Positions 2,638-61,270 of a stretch of DNA of 64,000 nt are shown one piece after another; positions within the stretch are counted from its first letter, which is position 1, and each line of letters begins with the position of its first letter. The notes beneath the pieces are model-generated. The model did not search any database. It worked only from the letters and a program-made list of their open reading frames with translations, and was not told the origin of the DNA. The position numbers and the translations under genes are program-made. Origin of the DNA: Cristatella mucedo (lineage: Eukaryota > Bryozoa > Phylactolaemata > Cristatellidae); NCBI GenBank assembly GCA_009760855.2, contig WPIO01000154.1:744001-808000 (forward strand). The letters are read 5' to 3'.

Positions 2638-2800
2638 TAAATATAAATATAAACAAATACAATTCATTTGTATAGTGCTACAAGAGAACTTAATCTCTAT
2701 TCAGGCGCTTGACGTATGCCTCGGGGCTCGAGCCCACGACCTCAGCTAGACCTCGGTCGGGGCGAGCACTTTGACCGCAGGAACAAACCAGCTCGGAATC
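2638..2800 (-). mobile_element. SINE-A copy
   Basis: Read on the minus strand: a tRNA-like head (degenerate A box at ~2795, B box GGGCTCGAGCCC at 2727-2738), then a linker with GAGGCATA, then a hairpin tail of LINE-A type (GCGCCTGAATAGAGATTAAG, AGTTCTCTTG) and an A/T-rich end. The TATAAATATAAAT repeats at 2638-2655 follow its 3' end. Confidence 0.85.
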
Positions 2801-4147: not shown

Positions 4148-5209
4148 ATAATAATAATAATGCACTTGATAAAGCGCCCTCAGAGAACTCAATCTCTCTC
4201 TAGGCGCATTACATTTGCTGCAAAGGGAAGCAAATTGAAGGGTGAGTAATATCATGCTTGATAAACAAACAACATGAATAATATGGTTAGTGGTGACATG
4301 CACAGAGTCAGCATGCAAATGTGGTTAGTGGCAGCATGCACAGTGTCAGCACGCATAAGCACATGAAGGACGAATCACAGGGACCCACTAAATGCTGTCC
4401 TAAATAGTTGTGGCAACTGCGACGCTCACAACAGATAAGCCTAGCTGCAGAGTTTTGCACCAGCTGTCAGCGCCTGATTGCACATGCCGTTAGGCCAGCA
4501 AGCAGTGAGTTACAGAAGTCAAGACGGGATGTCACAAATGCATGGACCAACTTAGATGTGGTATCATTGTCTAAATAAGCCTAAATTGTAGCAATGTTAT
4601 GCAGTTCAAAGTAAACAGACTTGGCTGTGGAGCTGATGTGGTCGTCTAACGAAAGGTCACTTTGGAACACGACACCTAGATTTCATGCAGATTCAACGGA
4701 AGATATGCTGGCAAGCCGATTTTGAGGCTTAAACTTTCGAGTTTCCGAGTCAGATTTGGTTTGCTTATAACTAGTACGTTGGTTTTATTGTCATTCAATT
4801 TGAGAAAGCTAGCTGCCATCCATGTGCGGATGTCAACAACACATTCGGCAAGCAGTTGAGAGAATTCTACATGCTGGAGGGCTGGGAGGGATCAAAGCAA
4901 AGGTACAACTGAGTGTCATCCGCATAGAAGTGAAAGCCTAGATTGTGCTTGGCAATCACATCAGCAAGAGGGCGAGTGTAAACCGTGAAAAGAACCAGAC
5001 CTAGCACGGAGCCCGGAGGTACCCCATATGTCAGAGGTTCCTCAGAAGATCTTCGTCCGCTCACATCAACACTCTGGAGTCTCCCACTGAGATATGACCA
5101 GAACCATTGCAATGCAGTGCAAATAAGACCCAGGCGAGATGAGGGGTGCTCAAGAAGGACTTGGCGACCGATAGTATCAAAAGCTGCCGAAAGATCCCTC
5201 TCTCTCTCG

Positions 5210-5955: not shown

Positions 5956-7197
5956 TGGTAAGCGCGAAACCCACGAGTCCAGCCGGCGGTGGAGTGGCTT
6001 GCGGAGCGACTGTGGGTAGAATCAGCCTGCCTTAGCGTCGGCGCGCCGGCGTCTAGTCTCGTGACGTCATTGCTCTGTTACCATCTGCTCTTGGAGCTTC
6101 TCTTAAATGAAACAGCTTCCGGTGCACGACAAAACTATCGGTACAGCATGTGAATGCTGAATGTTTTCTAATTGTTCAGACTTAATTGTGTTTAGCCACT
6201 GATGAGAAAACTATGCAAAACCTCGGCGAAAAGCAAAAGTTCAAAACGTATGGTTGCATGCATCTGAGGTGGTGGTGCATTAGGTTAAAAAAACTGGTCG
6301 GTTCGATGAGTTTTCTCTTTGCATTCCAGAGGCGTTCTGCATTTAGAGACTGCGCTCGCTCAGGAGCGGCTGATACGTGAGCAATAGACGTAGACGGACG
6401 TCAGCCTCGTCCCTGGAAGCCACGGAAAGGTGCGCTAGCCCAGCTGACCGCCAGGCAGCCACCGCGCGATACTCTGCCTACACATCTGCCATCTTGGCGA
6501 TTAAGCAGCAAAATAAAGGTGTTTCCCAAACGCCGCTTTGATTGCTGCTGCAACTGGTTTATTCGAACTAATGTTACAAATTTTGCGCAGCAGCAGCAGC
6601 AGCAGCAACTCCGGACCTGCAGTCCTTAAAGGCAGCACGCGTAGCGGGTACTGTGTTTATTGCTGACACGCCACCCCTCCTACCTCTCACCTCTCATTGC
6701 CGCCGCCGCAGCAGCCGCCACCGCTTCGCGAGCCTCGCATCCAATCGGAGAGTCGACAATATAATCACTGTTTTAATTAGCTGCATCTCGTCACTTGAAT
6801 GCGAAAGCTTTTTTTTACATCAGGAATGGATAGCGTTGAAATGCAGAGCAACGGAGGCAGAGAAGAGAAATAGGAGATCCAAAGAGGCGGGAAAACTCGC
6901 AAAGTATCAGCCCGCCGCCGCTGCGGATTTCCCACCGGCGACTTTCGAGCCAACCACAGCCCCGCAATGTCGGCTGCTCCAGGTCGGCTCCGGCCCTCGG
7001 GTACTCGGCAACGCCGCACGCGACAGCCGCGTGACGTTAGCTACAATGACAGCTATCGTCGCGTCACGCGACTCCTCTCATGCTACAATTAGTATGCGAC
7101 CGGCGAAATATCGCGAGTGCTAGCAAGCTCGCGAAAGTCCATCGTGAGACTCCGTCGCGCGTCGTCTGCAGCTTTATCGGCAAGCCGAACAGTTACC
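5956..7197. other. GC-rich intergenic region, no recognised gene
   Basis: It includes a CAG run at ~6590-6606. A 156-codon open frame (6653-7123, +) has low-complexity composition and no recognisable domain. CpG-rich sequence here could be a promoter of an unseen gene, but I cannot support one. Confidence 0.4.
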
Positions 7198-10989: not shown

Positions 10990-11021
<32 letters not shown>

Positions 11022-11900
11022 ACTTGATAAAGCTCCTTCAGAGAACTCAATCTCTTTCTAGGCGCTTTACATTTGCTGCAAAGGAAGCACTGTCAAATGG
11101 TTAATAATGCAGGGGTTAGCGTGAACGAAGACCCCCACAGGCATAAATTGTGCACCCTAGTTGCCCTATTTGGGGCAATCGCAGGCGTCAGCCCGATCGA
11201 TGTACAATGATCAGACCTCGTTCTGGAGACACCGCCGACATGACCGCGGTCGGCCCTATGCCAGGTAAGTATAAGCTTCGGGCAATAGTAACTGGCTCAC
11301 CATCAAGCAGCAATCGACTTCTAGGTTTGTCACTCACTTTGTTTTGTTTGCGATCGAAAAATCTAGCTGCCAATGTTTGCATCAATTTTAAGCGTGTTAT
11401 TGCACTTGCAAGAAGACGTGCAAACGGCGAGTTACGGAAGTTTAGTCGAAATGTCACAAATGCATGGACAAGCTTGGCTGTGATGTCCTTATTCAATAAG
11501 ATCCGATTTTGTGTGTGGAAATATTCCGTAGGTGTACAGACGTAGGTGAGCAGGCCCGACTTCGGAGCCTGCTTACCCTGCATCCCCTGTGACAACTCAT
11601 TTTGGATGAAGACCCCTAGATTCCCGGTAGCAGTGGCCCAGGAGATATGCTGGTAGTGCCAATTTGGAGGGCTGGGCCTTTCAGTTTCTTGGCAACACTT
11701 GGCTACCCGTAATTGGGAATTTAGTTTCGTCACCATTCAATCTAAGAAAGCTTGCTGCCGTCGTCTCGGTGCGAATGATGTCAAATGCAGGCTGTTAGGT
11801 AGCTGTGGGAAAGCTTGGGATGCTGGAAGGCAAGGGCAAGGTCGAAGTTCAGTACGGCCGCTAGTCTTCTAAGTAAAAATGAAAGCCTAGCCTCGAAGCC
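10990..11900 (-). mobile_element. Divergent LINE-A copy
   Basis: The (AAT)n end at ~10992-11019 and the hairpin at ~11030-11065 mark the 3' end on the minus strand. A frame at 11188-11736 keeps KLVHAFVTFRLNFRNSPFARL from the RT C-terminal region. Many changes and indels suggest an older copy or a different subfamily. Confidence 0.75.
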
Positions 11901-12004: not shown

Positions 12005-13080
12005 GACGTCTACTATAATGATAATAATTATAATAATAATGCACTTGATAAAGCCCCCTCAGACAACTCAATCTCTTTCTAGGCGCTTTACATTTGCTGC
12101 AAAGGGAAATGCGATTGAATGGTAAATAATATCATGCTTGATAAACATGAAAAACATGGTTAAGGGTGACATGCACAAGGTCAGCATGTAAGTGTGGTTA
12201 GTGGCAGCACGCACAGTGACAGCACTCATAAGCCCATGAAGGATGGATCACAGAGACCCACTAAATGCTGTCCTAAATAGGTGTGTTTATAAGTTCTTTT
12301 TAAATGTGGTCAAGTCAGGGATGTTCTGAAGAAAGTCGGGAGTGAGTTTCAGGCTTACGGAGCATACGAACTAAATGCACGGTCTCCAAAGGATTTGAGG
12401 TTTGTACGAGGTGCTGGTAGACTGTTGGATTCCGAAAGCGGGTGTCACGATGCTTGGCCTGGTTGGAGAGTAGATCAGAGGGATAGGCTGGAGCCAAAGA
12501 ATGAAGTGACCTAAAAGCGAGTGACAAAACCTTGAAGTCAATCCGTTGCTTGACTGGGAGCCAGTGCTGGTCGGCGAGTAGTGGTGTGGTGTGGCAACGG
12601 TCGACGCTCACGACAGACAAGCTAAGCCAAAAATCAAGACGGGATGTCACAAATGCATGGACCAACATAGACGTGGCATACTTATCTAAACAAGCCCGAA
12701 ATTTAGCAATGTTATGTAGCTGAAAGTAGGCAGACTTGATTGTGGAGCTGACGTGGTCGTCTAACGAGAGGCCACTTTGGAACATGACAACCAGATTTTG
12801 AGCTGATTCAACCGGAGATTTGCTGGCAAAGCCAATTTTGAGCGCTAGCCTTTCCAGTTTCTGAATCACACTTGATTTTCTCATAAATAGTAAGTTATTT
12901 TTATCATCGTTTAGTTTAAGAATATTTGCTATCATCCTATGCGGATGTCAACAATGCATGCAGCAAAGGGGTAGAGAGAATTCGACGTGCTTGAAGGCTG
13001 GCAGGGATCAAAGCAAAGGTACAACTGAGCGTCATTCGCATAGAAGTGACAGCCTAGGTTGTGCTTGGCAATCACATCAG

Positions 13081-13157
<77 letters not shown>

Positions 13158-15284
13158 ATAAACCGTGAAAAGAACCGGATCTAGCACGGAGCTCTGAGGT
13201 ACCCCATATTTGAGAGGTACCTCGGATGATCTTTGTCCATTCGCATTAATACTCTGGAGTCTCCCACTGAGATAGGACCTGAACCATTGCAGAGCAGTGC
13301 CAGTGATGCCCAGGTGAGATGAGAGGCGCTCTAGAAGAACTTTGTGATCGATGGTGTTAAAGCTGCCGAAGGATCAAGCAAAACAAGCAGAGACACTCTA
13401 CCCATATCTGCATTCCTAAGTAGGTCGTTGCACACCCTAAGCAATGCTGAGTCTGTAGAGTGATTAGCTCTAAAGCCAGACTGAAACTTACTAGCAAGGT
13501 GTGAAGTTTCAATATATGAGTTCAGCTGGTCTGCTGCGACTCATTCCAGTGTCTTTATAGGAATGGTAGAAAGGAGACTGGGCGGCAGTTGCTCAAGTTC
13601 TCTTGGTCTAATGTTGCTTTCTTGAGAAGTGGCCTTACTACATTTTTTTAAAGTTGCTGGGACATGACCTGAGGCTAATGACATATTAATGATGTTAGTT
13701 ATGCATGGCAGCAGCAGATCAATGCAACGTAGGAGCAGGACAGTGGGAACAGGGTCCAAAGGGCATGTAGTCTTCTTTGATTGGGATATGAACTTCAGGA
13801 CGAGATCACTAGTGACTTGCTTAAATGTAGACATTGAGTTGCAGCCAGAAATCGAGGAGCAGCATTCTGGGGGAGGGGTGGTTGTCATCGCAGGGATGGA
13901 CTCCGTGATCTTGTCTGATCTTCTAGATAGAGAATCGAGAGAAGCGATCGGTTCTATCATCACAAGGGAATAGTCAGGTAAGGAGCTACTCTGGCAATGG
14001 TTGAGGAGATGGCTGATCGTCGACATCAGCATTTTTGGATTGTGCATCTGTGATTTAACAATGTTTTTTAGAGAAGCTAGACTTGGCCTTTGCTAGGATC
14101 GATTGATACGACCAACAGTAGTCCTCGTATGTCTGTCAATGGACAGTCAGTCCTGATCTTTTGAATGCGTTTTCAAGCTTGCGCTTAGTAAACCTAGCTA
14201 GTTTAATGTCCGTGGTAAACCATAGGCCGTCTGGGCGAGAGCGCACAGTGCGCTTAGTCAGAGGTGAAAACTAGTCGAGCGTGTCTGCTAGTGTCGTGTT
14301 ATAGCTGTCTACCAATGATGACAGATCGGAGGGTGGACTGAGCAGCAGAGGCGAAGCAGATATTCTTGCACGGAGAGCATCTATGTTAAGGGTATTTAGG
14401 TTTCGCGATTCACAGGTTATTGATTTTAGAGGAGGGGAGACGGGCAGATACTGTAGATTGAATGAGATCTGCATGAGGTCAGATAAGCAGGATTTGATAG
14501 TAGTTGGCGATGAGAAAGTGCAGTTGTATGAGAAAATCTGGTCGCGTGTGTTACCTTTGATGTGAGTAGGGCCGTGCTCATGAGTCACAAGAGACAATGA
14601 GTCAGCCAATGCACGAAGTAAAGTGCTGAAGGCGTCAGATGATAAGCTATCAGAGTGAACGTTGAAATCACCCATAACAAGGATGGATTGATTTATGTCA
14701 CATAGAATCGAAACGAGATTGGAGAAATCTGAGATAAAGGAGGATTTGGTACCTGGTGGGCGATAGACTACTGCCACCATCGGTAGCTTGTTTTCGGATG
14801 AGACCAAGACAGTCGATTCAAAAGACTGCTTCGAGGGTACTGCAAATGGCTTGAAGTTTAATTTCGAGCGCACGATAACAACAGCTTCACATCCAGCTTT
14901 GATTGATCTAGGGGTGTGAGAGAATGAGAAACCAGTTTGGGTCTTTAATTGTCGGACAGTTTATCAATTTTAGCCAAGTTTCAGTTAGGGCGAGCTGGTC
15001 CAGACCATTGTCAGAAATAAGGTCGGTTATTACCAGAGGTTTATTGCATATGAGCGAGGATTTAAAAGGCAAGCGATGAGTCTCGCCGATGGAGTTATAA
15101 AAGGCCTGATGACCACTAAGTTAGAGAGATTCACAGTGACGCATGTGGGGGGAGCGTGCTGAGCGGTTCTAGACAATGCTAGGAACGGCAAGTCTAGAGC
15201 CAATACTCGTGGGCGAGTGCTACGATTGATTCCGCTCGAACTCGGCGCACTCGCCAACTCGCGGAACACTCGACGTCTCTCCAT
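12005..15284 (-). mobile_element. LINE-A, longest copy: endonuclease plus reverse transcriptase
   Basis: Read on the minus strand, the 5' part (15284 to ~14271) is an apurinic-like endonuclease. It has LALTETWL (catalytic Glu region, ~14970), VVYRPPG (~14760) and GDFNVHSD (~14670). A linker follows (~14270-13560), including CPLDPVPTVLLL (~13760). The RT part (~13560-12315) has FNTIDH (motif A) and the C-terminal block ITPLLADQHWLPVKQRIDF. The 3' UTR, hairpin and (ATT)n end at 12005-12035. Length ~3.3 kb with one visible ORF region is typical of L2/CR1-like elements; a separate ORF1 is not evident. Frameshifts, stops and an internal GA array make it inactive. Confidence 0.9.
13083..13157. repeat. 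(GA)n array inside LINE-A RT domain
   Basis: It lies between LINE-A codons for VYT and LADV, where unexpanded copies have only CTCCCTCTT. The same site is expanded at 37070-37116 and 30480-30600. Confidence 0.95.
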
Positions 15285-19299: not shown

Positions 19300-19615
<316 letters not shown>

Positions 19616-22910: not shown

Positions 22911-23058
22911 ATCGAGCTGATTTGGTCCAGCGGTCAAGATGCTCGCCCGGATCAAGGTCTTGCTGAGCTCGTGGGCTCGAGCACCGCCGTGTATGTAGAG
23001 CGCCTGAACAGAGATTAAGTTCTCTTGGGGCACTATACAAATGAGTTATATTTTATCA
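22911..23058 (+). mobile_element. SINE-A copy inside satellite
   Basis: Head TTGGTCCAGCGGTCAAGATGC (A box), B box GGGCTCGAGCAC, then GAGCGCCTGAACAGAGATTA and AGTTCTCTTGGGGCACTATA. The satellite resumes on the far side, so this inserted after the array formed. Confidence 0.9.
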
Positions 23059-36689: not shown

Positions 36690-37065
36690 CTTGACGGCAA
36701 GAACTCGTGTATTGAAACTTCAAACCTTGCTAGTAAGTTCCAGTCGGGCTTCAGAGCTAATCACTCCACAGAATCAGCATTGCTTAGGGTGTAGGACGAC
36801 CTACTTAAGAATGCAGACATAGATAGAGTATCTCTGCTTATTTTGCTCGATCGTTCAGCAGCTTTTGATACTATCAATCATCAACTTCTTTTAGAGCGCC
36901 TCTCATCTCGCCTGGTCGTCACTGGCACTGGTCTGCAGTGGTTCAGGTCCTATCTCAGTAGGAGACTCCAGAGTATTGATGTAAATGGACAAAGATCATC
37001 CGAGGTACCTCTGAAATATGGGGTACTTCAGGGCTCCGTGCTAGGTCCTGTTCTTTTCATGGTTT

Positions 37066-37118
<53 letters not shown>

Positions 37119-38268
37119 CTGATGTGATTGCCAAACACAACCTAGGCTATCACTTCTATGCAAATGACACTCAGTTGCATCTTTGCTTTGATCCATCCCA
37201 GCCTTCAAGCACTTCGAATTCTTTCTACCCCCTTGCTGCATGTATTGTTGACATCCGCACATGGATGATAGCAAATTTTCTGAAACTAAACGATGATAAA
37301 AATAACTTACTATTTATGAGAAAATCAAGTGTGATTCAGAAACTGGAAAGGCTAACGCTCAAAATTGGCTTTGCCAGCATATCTCCGGTTGAATCACCTC
37401 AAAATCTGGGTATCATATTCCAGAGCGGCCTCTCGTTAGACGACCACGTCAGCTCCACAATCAAGTCTGCCTACTTTTAGCTACATAACATCGCTCAAAT
37501 TCGGACTTGTTTAGATAAGGATGCCACGTCTAAGTTGGTCCATGCATTTGTGACATCCCATCTTGACTTCTGTAACTCACTGCTTGCTGGCCTACCAGCA
37601 TGTGCAATCAGGGGCTTACAGCTGGTGCTAACTCTGTAGCTAGACCTGTCTTTCGTGAGCGTCGCAGTTACCACATCACACCACTTCTCACCGACCAGCA
37701 CTGGCTACCAGTCAAGCAACTAATAGACTTCAAGGTTTTGTCGCTCACTTTTAGATCACTTCATTCTTTGGCTCCAGCCTATCTCTCAAATCTACTCCCC
37801 CAAAAGGTTAAGCATAGTACCACCCACTTTTCGGAATCCAACAGTTTACCAATACCTCGTACAAACCTCAAATCCTTTTGGAGACCGTGCATTTAGTTCG
37901 AATGCTCCTAAAGCTGGAACTCGCTCCAGACTTGCACAAAGACATCCTCTGACTCATCCTATTTTTAAAAGAATTTAAAGACGCATCTTTTATCAAAGCA
38001 TTTATTGGGTCTCTGTGATTCTTCATTCGTGTGCTTATACATGCTGACACTGTGCATGCTGCCACTAACCACACTTGCAAGCTGACCCCGTGCATGTCAC
38101 CCCTAACATGTTATTCATGTTGCTTATCAAGCATGATACTACTCACCATTCAATCGCGTTTCCCTTTGCAGCAAACGGAAAGCGCCTAGAAAGAGATTGA
38201 GTTGACTGAGGGCGCTTTGTCAAATGCATTATTATTATTTTTATTATTATTATTATTAAGTATGGTGC
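36690..38268 (+). mobile_element. LINE-A copy: RT domain to (ATT)n tail
   Basis: Encodes FQSGFRANHSTESALL, SAAFDTINHQLLLERLSSRL (motif A), SEVPLKYGVLQGSVLG, FYANDTQLHLCFD (YADD changed to YAND), NFLKLNDDKNNLLFM and SLDDHVSSTIKSAYF, then a stop at 37477-37479. The C-terminal region continues in other frames to SLAPAYLSNLLPQK. The hairpin (38180-38218) and ATTATTATT tail complete it. A CT array shifts the frame. It shares variants with the 12-15 kb copy (MIANFLKLNDDKNNLL), so both belong to one subfamily. Confidence 0.9.
37070..37116. repeat. (CT)n array inside LINE-A RT domain
   Basis: It lies between codons for VYT and LADV and shifts the frame downstream. Same site as the arrays at 13083 and 30480. 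Confidence 0.95.
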
Positions 38269-39721: not shown

Positions 39722-39868
39722 ATATGTATAATTCATTTGTATAGCGCCATAAGAGAACTTAATCTCTATTCAGGCGCTTTACATATGCCTCCAGACTTGA
39801 TCGCACGACCTCAGCCAGACCTTGGTCGGGGTGAGCACCTTAGCAGCTGGACCAAACCAACCTACCAC
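39722..39868 (-). mobile_element. SINE-A copy
   Basis: Hairpin tail at 39745-39785 and tRNA-like head with A box TGGTCCAGCTGC on the minus strand; the B box has decayed (GTGCGATCAAGTC). Confidence 0.85.
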
Positions 39869-44204: not shown

Positions 44205-44368
44205 GGAGATGGCACACTAGGTAAGGTGGTTGCTTTCACGACCTCGGTCCCGAGGTCGTGCGTTCGATTCCTGCAGTGGGCGATTCTTTATCGCCACTGC
44301 AAGCGGTGGTGATAGCCGTAAAGGCTCTTCTGTCGCTATACAAAAAGAGGCTGTTTAATCAGCTAGGA
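44205..44368 (+). mobile_element. SINE-B copy, best preserved
   Basis: The tRNA-like head has a perfect anticodon-like stem (CACGACCTCGG/TCCCGAGGTCGTG) and B box CGTTCGATTCC. The body is complete to GGCTGTTTAATCAGCTAGG. It sits directly before satellite block 2. Confidence 0.9.
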
Positions 44369-46735: not shown

Positions 46736-46882
46736 TAATATATAATTCATTTATATAGCGCCCCAAGAGAACTTAATCTCTATTCAGGCGCTTCACATGT
46801 GCCTCGGGGCTCAAGCCCACGACCTCAGTCAGACCTTGGTCGGGGCGAGCACCTTAACCGCTAGACCAAACCAGCTCGACAC
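46736..46882 (-). mobile_element. SINE-A copy, best preserved
   Basis: On the minus strand: TTGGTCTAGCGGTTAAGGTG (A box), GGGCTTGAGCCC (B box), GAGGCACATG, hairpin GCGCCTGAATAGAG...CTTGGGGCGC, and an AT-rich tail. Confidence 0.92.
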
Positions 46883-48024: not shown

Positions 48025-48158
48025 AGTATAATTAATTTTTACAACGTTCTAAAAGAGCTTAATGTCTATCCAGGAGCTGTGCATATTCCGCCGCAGGGCG
48101 CGAGCTCGTGACCTAGATCATTAAAGGGGGAACACCTTACCCCTAGGCCAAATCAGGG
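48025..48158 (-). mobile_element. Decayed SINE-A copy
   Basis: Minus strand: TTGGCCTAGGGGTAAGGTGT head, AGGTCACGAGCTCGCGCCC (B box region), and a hairpin-like tail TAGACATTAAGCTCTTTTAG. Confidence 0.7.
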
Positions 48159-48564
48159 CCACTGGGAACCTGGTTGTATAGTACTTTATCGTTAGGCGGC
48201 ATGAAAGTGCCTTAGTCACGTAACAATCTCTTAATGTGTGCTGTAGGCTATATTCCAGATAGAGTGGTTGCTCTGGACGTCGAACAGTGAGTTTAGCACT
48301 GAGGCCGACTTTTCCGACTTTTTCTGGTCGCTGTAGCTGCCAAATATACACACTGCTCTACGCTAAAGATATAACAACAAATACTTACTAGTGCATGTTC
48401 TTTTGTGCTGTTAACAGTATATCATGATTAATTGGTTGGTAGTCACAATAGTTCATGAAACAAGTATAATATCTCTGCAGTCATGGTTGGGCTGATATAT
48501 TACGCCCCCCCCGTGTCAATTACGTTGAGCGTTAGCTGCTCTGAGAATTGTAATGTGTCTGCGT
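48159..48564. other. No gene seen
   Basis: No recognised feature. Confidence 0.4.
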
Positions 48565-49636
48565 CATGGTGCAATCTAGGCTTTTACTTTTATGCAGATG
48601 GCACTCAGTTTTACCTTTGCTTTGATCCCTCCGAGCTCTCCAGCACGTCAAATTCCCTCAACACCCTTGCGGCATGTATTGATGACACTCGCACATGGAT
48701 AGCAGCAAACCTTCTTAAATTTAATGGTGATATAACAAACTTGCTGGCCGGGGGCAAACCAAGTATGATTCAGAAATTAGAAAGGTTAACACTCGCAATC
48801 GGCTTTGCCAGCATATGTCTCGCTGAATCTGCACGAAATCTAGGCGTTCTGTTCAGAAGTGATTTTTCATTAAACTACCACATCAGCTCGAAATCTAGGC
48901 GTTCTGTTCCGAAGTGATTTTTCATTGAACTACTACATCAGCTCTACAGTCAAGTCTGCCTATATTCAGCTACATAACATTGCTAAAATTCAGGCTTCCT
49001 TAGGCAGGAATACCACGTATAAATTGGTCCATGCATCTGTGACATCCCGTCTCGACTTCCATAACTCACTGCTTGCTGGTCTACCAGCCTGTGCACTCAG
49101 GCGCTTACAGCTGGTTTAAAACTCTGCAGCTACTCTTGTCTGTCGTAAGCCTCGCAGTTGCCACATCACACCATTTCTTACCGACCTGCACTAGCTTCCA
49201 GTCAAGCAACTCATCGACTTCTAGATTTTGTCGCCCACTTTTAGGTCCCTTCATTTTTTGGCGCTTACCTACCAATCAGATCTACTACCCCACCAGGCTA
49301 AGCACCATACCACTGTCTTTTCGGAATCTAATCGTCTACATATACCTCACACGAACATTAGATCCTTTCGAGATCGTGTCTTTTATTCATATGCCCCCAA
49401 ATCAAGGAAATCACTCCCGACTTGCGCCACGACATTCTCCGACTTGACCGCATTTAAATAGAAACTAAAAACGCATCTATTTATGACATAAGTTAGTAGG
49501 TCCATGTGATTCGTCTTTTACAGGATATTACTCACGATTCAATCGCGTTTCCCTTTGCAGCAAATGTTAAGCACCTAGACAGAGATTGAGTTCTCTGAGG
49601 GCGCTTCATCAAGTGCATTATTATTATTATTATTAT
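48565..49636 (+). mobile_element. LINE-A copy from YADD box to (ATT)n tail
   Basis: Encodes FYFYADGTQFYLCFDPSELSS (YADD intact, then G), LLKFNGDITNLLAG, YISSTVKSAYIQLHN, LDFHNSLLAGLPACALRRLQLV, then frame-broken C-terminal sequence. The hairpin at ~49568-49605 and ATTATTATT tail finish it. A 55-bp tandem duplication lies inside. Confidence 0.9.
48834..48943. repeat. 55-bp tandem duplication in LINE-A
   Basis: 48834-48888 is repeated at 48889-48943 with about three differences (begins CGAAATCTAGGCGTTCTGTT). Confidence 0.95.
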
Positions 49637-51267: not shown

Positions 51268-51418
51268 AGCTTGTTTAACAGCCTCATTTGCATAGCGGCA
51301 GAAGAGCCTTGACGGCTATCACCACCGCTTGAAGTTGGCAATAATTGACCGCCCACTGCAGGATTAGAACCTCCTATCTGGGTCGTGAAGAGCGAGCACC
51401 TTACCTTCTGGGCTGTCA
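51268..51418 (-). mobile_element. SINE-B copy
   Basis: Minus strand: GAAGGTAAGGTGCTCGCTC, decayed B box GGTTCTAATCC, TTCAAGCGGTGGTGATAGCC, AAGGCTCTTCTGCCGCTATG. Head-to-head with the next copy. Confidence 0.85.
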
Positions 51419-51455
51419 CATTCCAGCAATTAAAGGATGTCGCACGGTAAGGAGC

Positions 51456-51622
51456 AGTGATGGAACACCCGGTAAGGCGGTTGCTCTTCACTATCTCGCG
51501 CCCGAGGTCGCGGGTTCGAATCCTGCCGGGGCAATTCTTCATTGCTGCTGCAAGCGGTGGCGATAACCTTTGAGGCTTTTCTGTCACTATGCAAAAAGAG
51601 GCTGCTTAATCAGCTAGGATTT
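51456..51622 (+). mobile_element. SINE-B copy
   Basis: GGTAAGGCGGTTGCTC, B box GGGTTCGAATCC (perfect), GCAAGCGGTGGCGATAACC, GGCTGCTTAATCAGC. Confidence 0.88.
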
Positions 51623-60249: not shown

Positions 60250-60378
60250 CTTGCGGATGCTATCACCAATCATTTCATAATGCTTTCTATGCAGCATCTG
60301 TAAAGTGCCTAGAAACAGATCCAGTTCTCTGAGGGTGCTATGCATATGCGTTGTTATTATTAGTAGTATTATTATCAT
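60250..60378 (+). mobile_element. LINE-A 3' tail in intron 1
   Basis: AAAGTGCCTAGAAACAGATC, AGTTCTCTGAGGGTGCTATG, then TTATTATTAGTAGTATTATTA. It lies 240 bp before exon 2. Confidence 0.85.
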
Positions 60379-61124: not shown

Positions 61125-61270
61125 AAAGCCACCCGGGTTGGGCTCATTGGGTAAGGGACTCGCCTTTGACGACCAAGGTCGTGAGCTCGAGCCCTGTGGC
61201 ATATGTGAAGCGCCCGGATAAAGATCAAGTTCTTGTAGGGGGCTATGCAAATGAGTTAGATAATTGTTTT
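61125..61270 (+). mobile_element. SINE-A copy in GAK intron 2
   Basis: Head TTGGGCTCATTGGGTAAGGG (A box), GTGAGCTCGAGCCC (B box), GGCATATGTGAAGCGCCCGG, ATCAAGTTCTTGTAGGGGGC. Confidence 0.85.

Follow-up and report, generated by a model that had tools for sequence, protein, structure and literature searches.

The short interspersed element SINE-A of the bryozoan Cristatella mucedo and the LINE-A lineage of the same genome appear to form a SINE/LINE pair, with the LINE-A lineage mobilising SINE-A, a reading to which we give a probability of about 80%. The first-pass annotation of this DNA had proposed that LINE-A mobilised SINE-A. Tail homology, the ages of the two elements, target duplications and the presence of U1 snRNA chimeras on both favour the LINE-A lineage in this role. 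The proposal narrows in one respect: the tails are about 85% identical, their terminal repeats differ, an older LINE-A form is slightly closer and internal-loop letters are never exchanged in exact copies, so that mobilisation by the present LINE-A is something we infer. Tail sharing between SINEs and LINEs is already known from other animals, and the U1 chimeras are the more interesting part of the result. The window discussed here is the whole stretch of DNA analysed, 64,000 nucleotides at positions 744,001 to 808,000 of contig WPIO01000154.1 (G000:C60:744001-808000), and genome-wide searches covered the 688 contigs of the assembly (572,011,866 bases).

SINE-A is a tRNA-like SINE of about 145 bp, the final ~62 nt of which are a LINE-A-related tail. 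Its consensus head matches 11 of 11 positions of the A box and 9 of 11 of the B box; no tRNA match was found in the window, either in Rfam at E values up to 5 or by ARAGORN. The element and its tail hairpin are present at all six places named in the annotation (46736, 39722, 19300 and 2638 on the minus strand, 22911 and 61125 on the plus strand). The uniform tail letters ascribed to these copies are found only in part. The 20-nt 5' half is exact in four of the six, with one mismatch at 22911 and four at 61125. Within the 3' half, the opening 16 nt match exactly at 46736 alone, the other five copies having one to four mismatches. Some SINE-A copies are 5'-truncated. The window contains the following copies:

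46736..46878, minus strand: the SINE-A copy under study, with a tRNA-like head, then the LINE-related tail with hairpin and an AT-rich end (consensus alignment 46741-46878, E 8e-40)
46757..46792, minus strand: tail hairpin of this copy, outer stem AGCGCC/GGCGCT, inner stem AGAGA/TCTCT, loop TTAAGT (consensus fold -19.0 kcal/mol, z -4.5)
39727..39861, minus strand: SINE-A copy (consensus search)
19315..19444, minus strand: SINE-A copy whose head lacks the first ~9 nt, beside a (GA)n stretch (consensus search)
2659..2796, minus strand: SINE-A copy (consensus search)
22913..23050, plus strand: SINE-A copy (consensus search)
61135..61258, plus strand: divergent, older SINE-A relative with internal loop GGATA (consensus search)
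48028..48156, minus strand: older SINE-A relative, a seventh copy absent from the first-pass list (consensus search)

The 5' internal loop of the tail reads GGATA in the older SINE-A relatives (61135-61258, 48028-48156 and an old SINE at L108) and GAATA in the young copies.

The likeness between the SINE-A and LINE-A tails exceeds chance. Against the A1, A2 and older LINE-A consensuses, the SINE-A tail shows 52, 53 and 53 identities over 62-63 nt and local scores of 38, 40 and 42, and none of 3,000 dinucleotide shuffles reached any of these three scores (shuffled maximum 18). The tail consensuses were built from the window and 20 unbiased 10-kb stretches and were partly set by eye. Used as a query against the window, the SINE-A consensus returned 7 SINEs and 14 LINE tails at E <1e-3, with all LINE matches lying within SINE positions 71-137. 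The two tails have identical outer and inner stems, and A2 also shares the apical loop TTAAGT with SINE-A; they differ in the internal loop (GAAT vs AGAA; TG vs GA), at single flank letters and beyond the hairpin. Chance resemblance, or convergence on a hairpin, is almost certainly not the explanation. Nothing other than the shortness of the stretch speaks for it, whereas the shuffles never approached the observed scores, the likeness reaches beyond the stems into the loop and unpaired flanks, and similarity is absent between the SINE head and the adjoining LINE 3' UTR. The terminal repeat (ATT)n is found in 35 of 39 LINE-A tails and 8 of 79 SINE-A tails. Near-identical tails and a common terminal repeat are usual in known pairs and are not seen in SINE-A and LINE-A; we did not take these features as defining for SINE/LINE pairs.

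The common fold proposed in the annotation is borne out by single-sequence folds, in which SINE and LINE consensuses share one two-step hairpin, with z from -4.1 to -5.55. The apical loop in the consensus folds is TTAAGT or TTGAGT, and not GGAUA as in the UnaL2-type hairpin. In an alignment of 62 copies, 88.8% of cells pair, yet the covariation score was reached by 368 of 500 shuffles, and RNAalifold returned no structure on the tail copies. This alignment excludes nine of the 71 listed tails, which were judged by eye to be broken, truncated or overly divergent. A null result for covariation is expected if most tail copies are dead.

LINE-A-type tails match the letters quoted in the annotation, with variation, and are commoner than SINE-A, with 19 in the window, a count that follows the transfer of one unclassified tail to SINE. 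Across the assembly, the 16-mer LINE arm AGTTCTCTGAGGGCGC occurs 26,469 times and the 16-mer SINE arm AGTTCTCTTGGGGCGC 4,817 times; the reversed patterns of both arms have no occurrence genome-wide. Twenty unbiased 10-kb stretches together held 57 recognisable tails, classified by BLAST on the upstream sequence as 29 LINE, 10 SINE and 18 unclassified. Over all sets, visual inspection moved three unclassified tails to SINE (one each from the window, a SINE-pattern locus and the random set), and the remainder were counted as older LINEs. In the window and the 20 stretches together, a LINE-type tail lies 136-299 nt downstream in 21 of 41 reverse transcriptase (RT)-coding clusters, the 21 including the tail at 11046 that belongs to the U1 chimera of the window; another RT cluster has a SINE-A 235 nt downstream. 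The C-terminus of the LINE-A RT appears to resemble that of L2 elements, and LINE-A may belong to the L2 clade. A LINE-A copy at L047, whose tail lies at 6018, has matches to Exo_endo_phos (PF03372, 1.4e-12) and RVT_1 (1.2e-14) in frames that overlap and are offset by frameshifts; its sole PDB match is human LINE-1 ORF2p (E 3e-4). LINE-A is represented in the window by, among others:

12028..14873, minus strand: broken LINE-A copy with an endonuclease-like ORF, RT-side ORFs, 3' UTR and tail (12028-12106), from ORFs and tail
38162..38240, plus strand: LINE-A tail, with RT-coding remnant 36849-37948 upstream
49552..49629, plus strand: LINE-A tail, with RT-coding remnant 48492-49320 upstream
4149..4226, minus strand: LINE-A tail, A1 form
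60289..60361, plus strand: older LINE-A tail (GTGCC...GGGTGCTATGCATATG), past the hairpin more like SINE-A

The endonuclease-like ORF at 14271-14873 (minus strand) matches Exo_endo_phos_2 with E 1.7e-5, which does not reach the Pfam cut-off, and Pfam scans of five other ORFs in the window gave no match.

The pairing was also to be judged by whether another LINE has a closer tail. Patterns and sampling turned up none outside the LINE-A lineage; within it, the older LINE-A form, at 42, ties with or slightly exceeds A2 (40) and A1 (38), so the SINE tail most likely descends from a LINE-A ancestor, judging from the sequences. Exact patterns joining the LINE upstream sequence to the LINE arm occur 13,473 times in the assembly and those joining the SINE upstream sequence to the SINE arm 3,016 times, and both swapped combinations have no exact occurrence. 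The LINE 3' arm followed by the SINE 3' end gave 549 matches at no more than one mismatch; among the 100 matches listed, 2 are exact, and most of the rest are variants of SINE-A or belong to the older LINE form. No young LINE with a SINE-type tail was found by exact or near-exact patterns and sampling. Recent copying of today's LINE-A tail onto SINE-A is ruled out, as the internal-loop letters are never exchanged in exact copies.

These searches bear on an unlikely alternative, that the SINE-A tail is kin to LINE-A and the mobiliser is an unsampled sister LINE that keeps the TATATAAATGAATTATA end and the AT-rich terminal repeat. Such a LINE might account for the different terminal repeats, for the closer match of the older LINE-A form past the hairpin, and for internal-loop differences that are fixed without exchange. 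Of 68 sampled SINE 3' arm loci (from the 4,817), 62 are SINE-headed by alignment score, five are 5'-truncated SINEs by reading and one, L022, is non-SINE. Around 672-760 of this locus, the exact SINE 3' arm stands in a LINE-like context without a SINE head and ends in ATTATC repeats. L022 could thus be a trace of a sister LINE, but by eye it has no RT reading frame within 700 nt upstream, and the same reading is opposed by the absence of the LINE upstream sequence joined to the SINE 5' arm and by the count of two exact joins of LINE 3' arm and SINE end among the 100 listed. It is still more improbable that LINE-A acquired its tail from SINE-A, or that SINE-A copies are LINE-A tails that have, of late and many times over, picked up a tRNA-like 5' end. 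This genome does contain template-jump chimeras, but in 62 of the 68 sampled copies one and the same head immediately precedes the tail, and exact matches show no case of the SINE head region next to the present LINE-A arm.

SINE-A and LINE-A are both young and of similar age. Median divergence from consensus in the unbiased set is 5.3% for young SINE-A (n=12), 4.5% for A2 (n=9) and 7.6% for A1 (n=22); the older SINE form stands at 16.3% (n=3). At SINE-pattern loci, which over-represent young copies, divergence goes down to 0%. SINE-A insertions also carry short target duplications. In 47 full-length copies, the string shared by the two flanks has a mean length of 5.17, against 3.97+-0.18 in shuffled pairs (0 of 300 as high), and in the 40 copies left once the three U1 chimeras and four copies lying within simple repeats are set aside it is 4.72 against 3.99+-0.15 (0 of 500).

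Because SINE-A carries a close relative of the LINE-A hairpin, it likely borrows the LINE-A copying enzyme. SINE-A would then be a non-autonomous, tRNA-headed parasite of the LINE-A lineage. Template switching during reverse transcription probably gave an ancestral SINE RNA the 3' terminus of an older relative of LINE-A. SINE-A would be transcribed by RNA polymerase III from its A and B boxes, and the LINE-A RT would recognise the common stem-loop, given the identical stems and the loop TTAAGT that is also present in A2. The enzyme would prime at a nick in the target DNA and copy the SINE RNA there, with short target duplications as the result. The current A1 and A2 elements, rather than an unsampled sister LINE, would be the source of this activity.

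A second type of evidence comes from copies of U1 snRNA fused to these elements. The window holds one such chimera:

11110..11272, minus strand: full-length copy of U1 snRNA with 91% identity to the U1 array of this genome (Rfam; the sole U1 in the window)
11008..11109, minus strand: LINE-A 3' UTR and tail, the last ~100 nt, directly after the U1 3' end, making a U1/LINE-A chimera

A search of the genome with the array U1 gave 27 matches, with all candidates scored: 15 on contig C652, which carries an eight-copy U1 array plus diverged neighbours, and 12 elsewhere. Ten of the 12 dispersed copies enter a retroelement within about 20 nt of the U1 3' end. Four continue into LINE-A (C60, C684, C665 and C99), three into SINE-A (C77, C441 and C398) and three into SINE-B (C166, C22 and C676), although the C684 and C665 chimeras are not independent. 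These loci are window positions 11008-11272 (minus strand), L052, L053, L055, L051, L056, L057, L059, L062 and L065; in an eleventh, L106, LINE-A begins about 77 nt further on. A copy on C656 was rejected as a direct fusion, since likeness to the LINE-A 3' UTR starts about 77 nt past U1, and C82, a U1 fragment, has none of these elements downstream. Nine of the 11 retroelement-linked copies start at U1 nucleotides 1-3, and none of the 12 dispersed copies has eight or more A within 40 nt of the U1 3' end. Chimeras of L1 with U1-U6 are known, as described in PMC13174262. U1 chimeras on LINE-A and SINE-A alike are what a common tail-dependent enzyme would predict, and by analogy they would lend independent support to the pairing. 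The chimeras alone do not single out LINE-A, because SINE-B, which has a different tail, forms them too. Our literature search recognised no published U1 case of such chimeras, and we make no claim that there is none in print.

The C684 and C665 chimeras (L109 and L110) can be aligned over a stretch that starts 47 nt ahead of U1 and finishes where the tail does. We considered these 47 nt as a U1 promoter and rejected this, as their match to the true U1 upstream sequence is no better than that of shuffles and they are antisense LINE RT. Antisense LINE RT runs on beyond the 47 nt in C684 and is present in the C665 flank as well; it is also found just before U1 in C99 (L056). The idea that the C684/C665 chimera moved as a unit is weakened by this extension of the antisense RT outside it: these 47 nt could belong to the target, and duplication or gene conversion would explain the shared boundaries equally well. 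The sharing might reflect duplication, gene conversion or renewed retrotransposition, and the antisense pieces might reflect twin priming. One U1/LINE-A chimera is present at two loci, and among the copies found here we see no U1-headed family.

The junctions between U1 and the SINEs have a feature of their own. In all three SINE-A chimeras, the interval reaching from 8 nt ahead of the SINE start to 4 nt past it contains four or more T, against 4 of 57 non-chimeric full-length copies, and both legible SINE-B chimeras have 4-5 T too. A run of 4-5 T separates U1 from the SINE start at L052, L053, L057, L059 and L062; at L059 and L062 the U1 copy ends before the Sm site. A T-run in C99 was dropped as a candidate U tail, being mostly explained by LINE sequence. 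We hypothesise that the T-run is the copy of an oligo(U) tail on U1. In mammals, uridylation of aberrant precursor snRNAs is described in PMC6053540.

SINE-B is a second tRNA-like SINE family, with copies at window positions 44206-44355, 51450-51606, 51275-51427 and others; it starts with GGTGAGCC, has the B box GGTTCGAATCC (11 of 11) and ends in CTATACAAAAAGAGGCTGTTAA. A third repeat, SINE-C, ends in GTGCGCTATACAAAACTC and is seen near window position 1960 and at L115, fused to a U6 copy. U6 has at least 11 matches in the genome (48 of 33,457 candidates scored), one of which we read as a true gene (L113). Among the other ten, five (L114, L116, L117, L119 and L120) match SINE-B, one of them weakly, one matches SINE-C and one enters LINE RT (L121). 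U2 has at least 45 matches (46 of 28,488 candidates scored), and one of 12 fetched loci is clearly fused to an old LINE-A-type tail. The numbers are small, and it is suggestive only that U6 occurs mainly with SINE-B and U1 mainly with LINE-A and SINE-A.

Similar pairs are known from fishes. Eel UnaSINE1/UnaL2 and the carp HAmo SINE and LINE, of the L2 clade, likewise have a stem-loop 3' tail common to a SINE and an RT-coding LINE, as described in PMC4176376 and PMC2653535. The tail of the carp HAmo SINE is given as one nucleotide different from that of its LINE (PMC2653535). Compared with the tails of both pairs as described there, those of SINE-A and LINE-A are about 85% rather than nearly identical, and their terminal repeats differ. 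In the known L2-type tails so described, GGAUA is the apical loop, whereas here it is the 5' internal loop that holds GAATA, replaced by GGATA in the older SINE copies. For zebrafish ZfL2-1 and ZfL2-2, the 3' stem-loop is described as needed for retrotransposition and its loop as recognised by the cognate protein (PMC4176376); the recognition step for LINE-A, by contrast, we infer here from sequence.

The chimeras also have parallels. In the account of Doucet et al. (PMC4476161), platypus U6 is fused to L2 or to its SINE Mon-1, and Anolis U6 to L1, L2, RTE and AnolisSINE2. The same account attributes the lack of U6 copies that are 3'-truncated or bear poly(A) in platypus to stringent, L2-specific tail recognition (PMC4476161). 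As described there, U6-L2/Mon-1 in platypus and U6-L2/AnolisSINE2 in Anolis are alike to our case in that an snRNA is fused both to a LINE and to a SINE believed to be mobilised by that LINE. The snRNA differs: in C. mucedo LINE-A and SINE-A carry U1, and U6 is found mainly on SINE-B.

Kojima is said to have described, in 2015, crocodilian SINEU elements, U1- or U2-headed units that reportedly arose via repeated addition of snRNA to 5' ends. In contrast to SINEU, what we see here are U1-headed copies rather than a U1-headed family.

Taken as a pair, SINE-A and LINE-A set the conserved parts of the tail, the stems and apical loop, against its drifting parts, the internal loop and terminal repeat. 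A more far-reaching and less likely reading is that a tail-dependent LINE and its SINE, though diverged in tail sequence, stay functionally matched via nothing but the stems and the apical loop. On this reading U1, apparently bearing a short oligo(U) at its 3' end, would serve both of them time and again as a second template. If this is true, such U1-headed units could seed U1-headed SINEs. The snRNA chimeras may also serve as a genomic sign of tail-dependent LINEs that requires no cell assay and could be sought in any snRNA-annotated genome.
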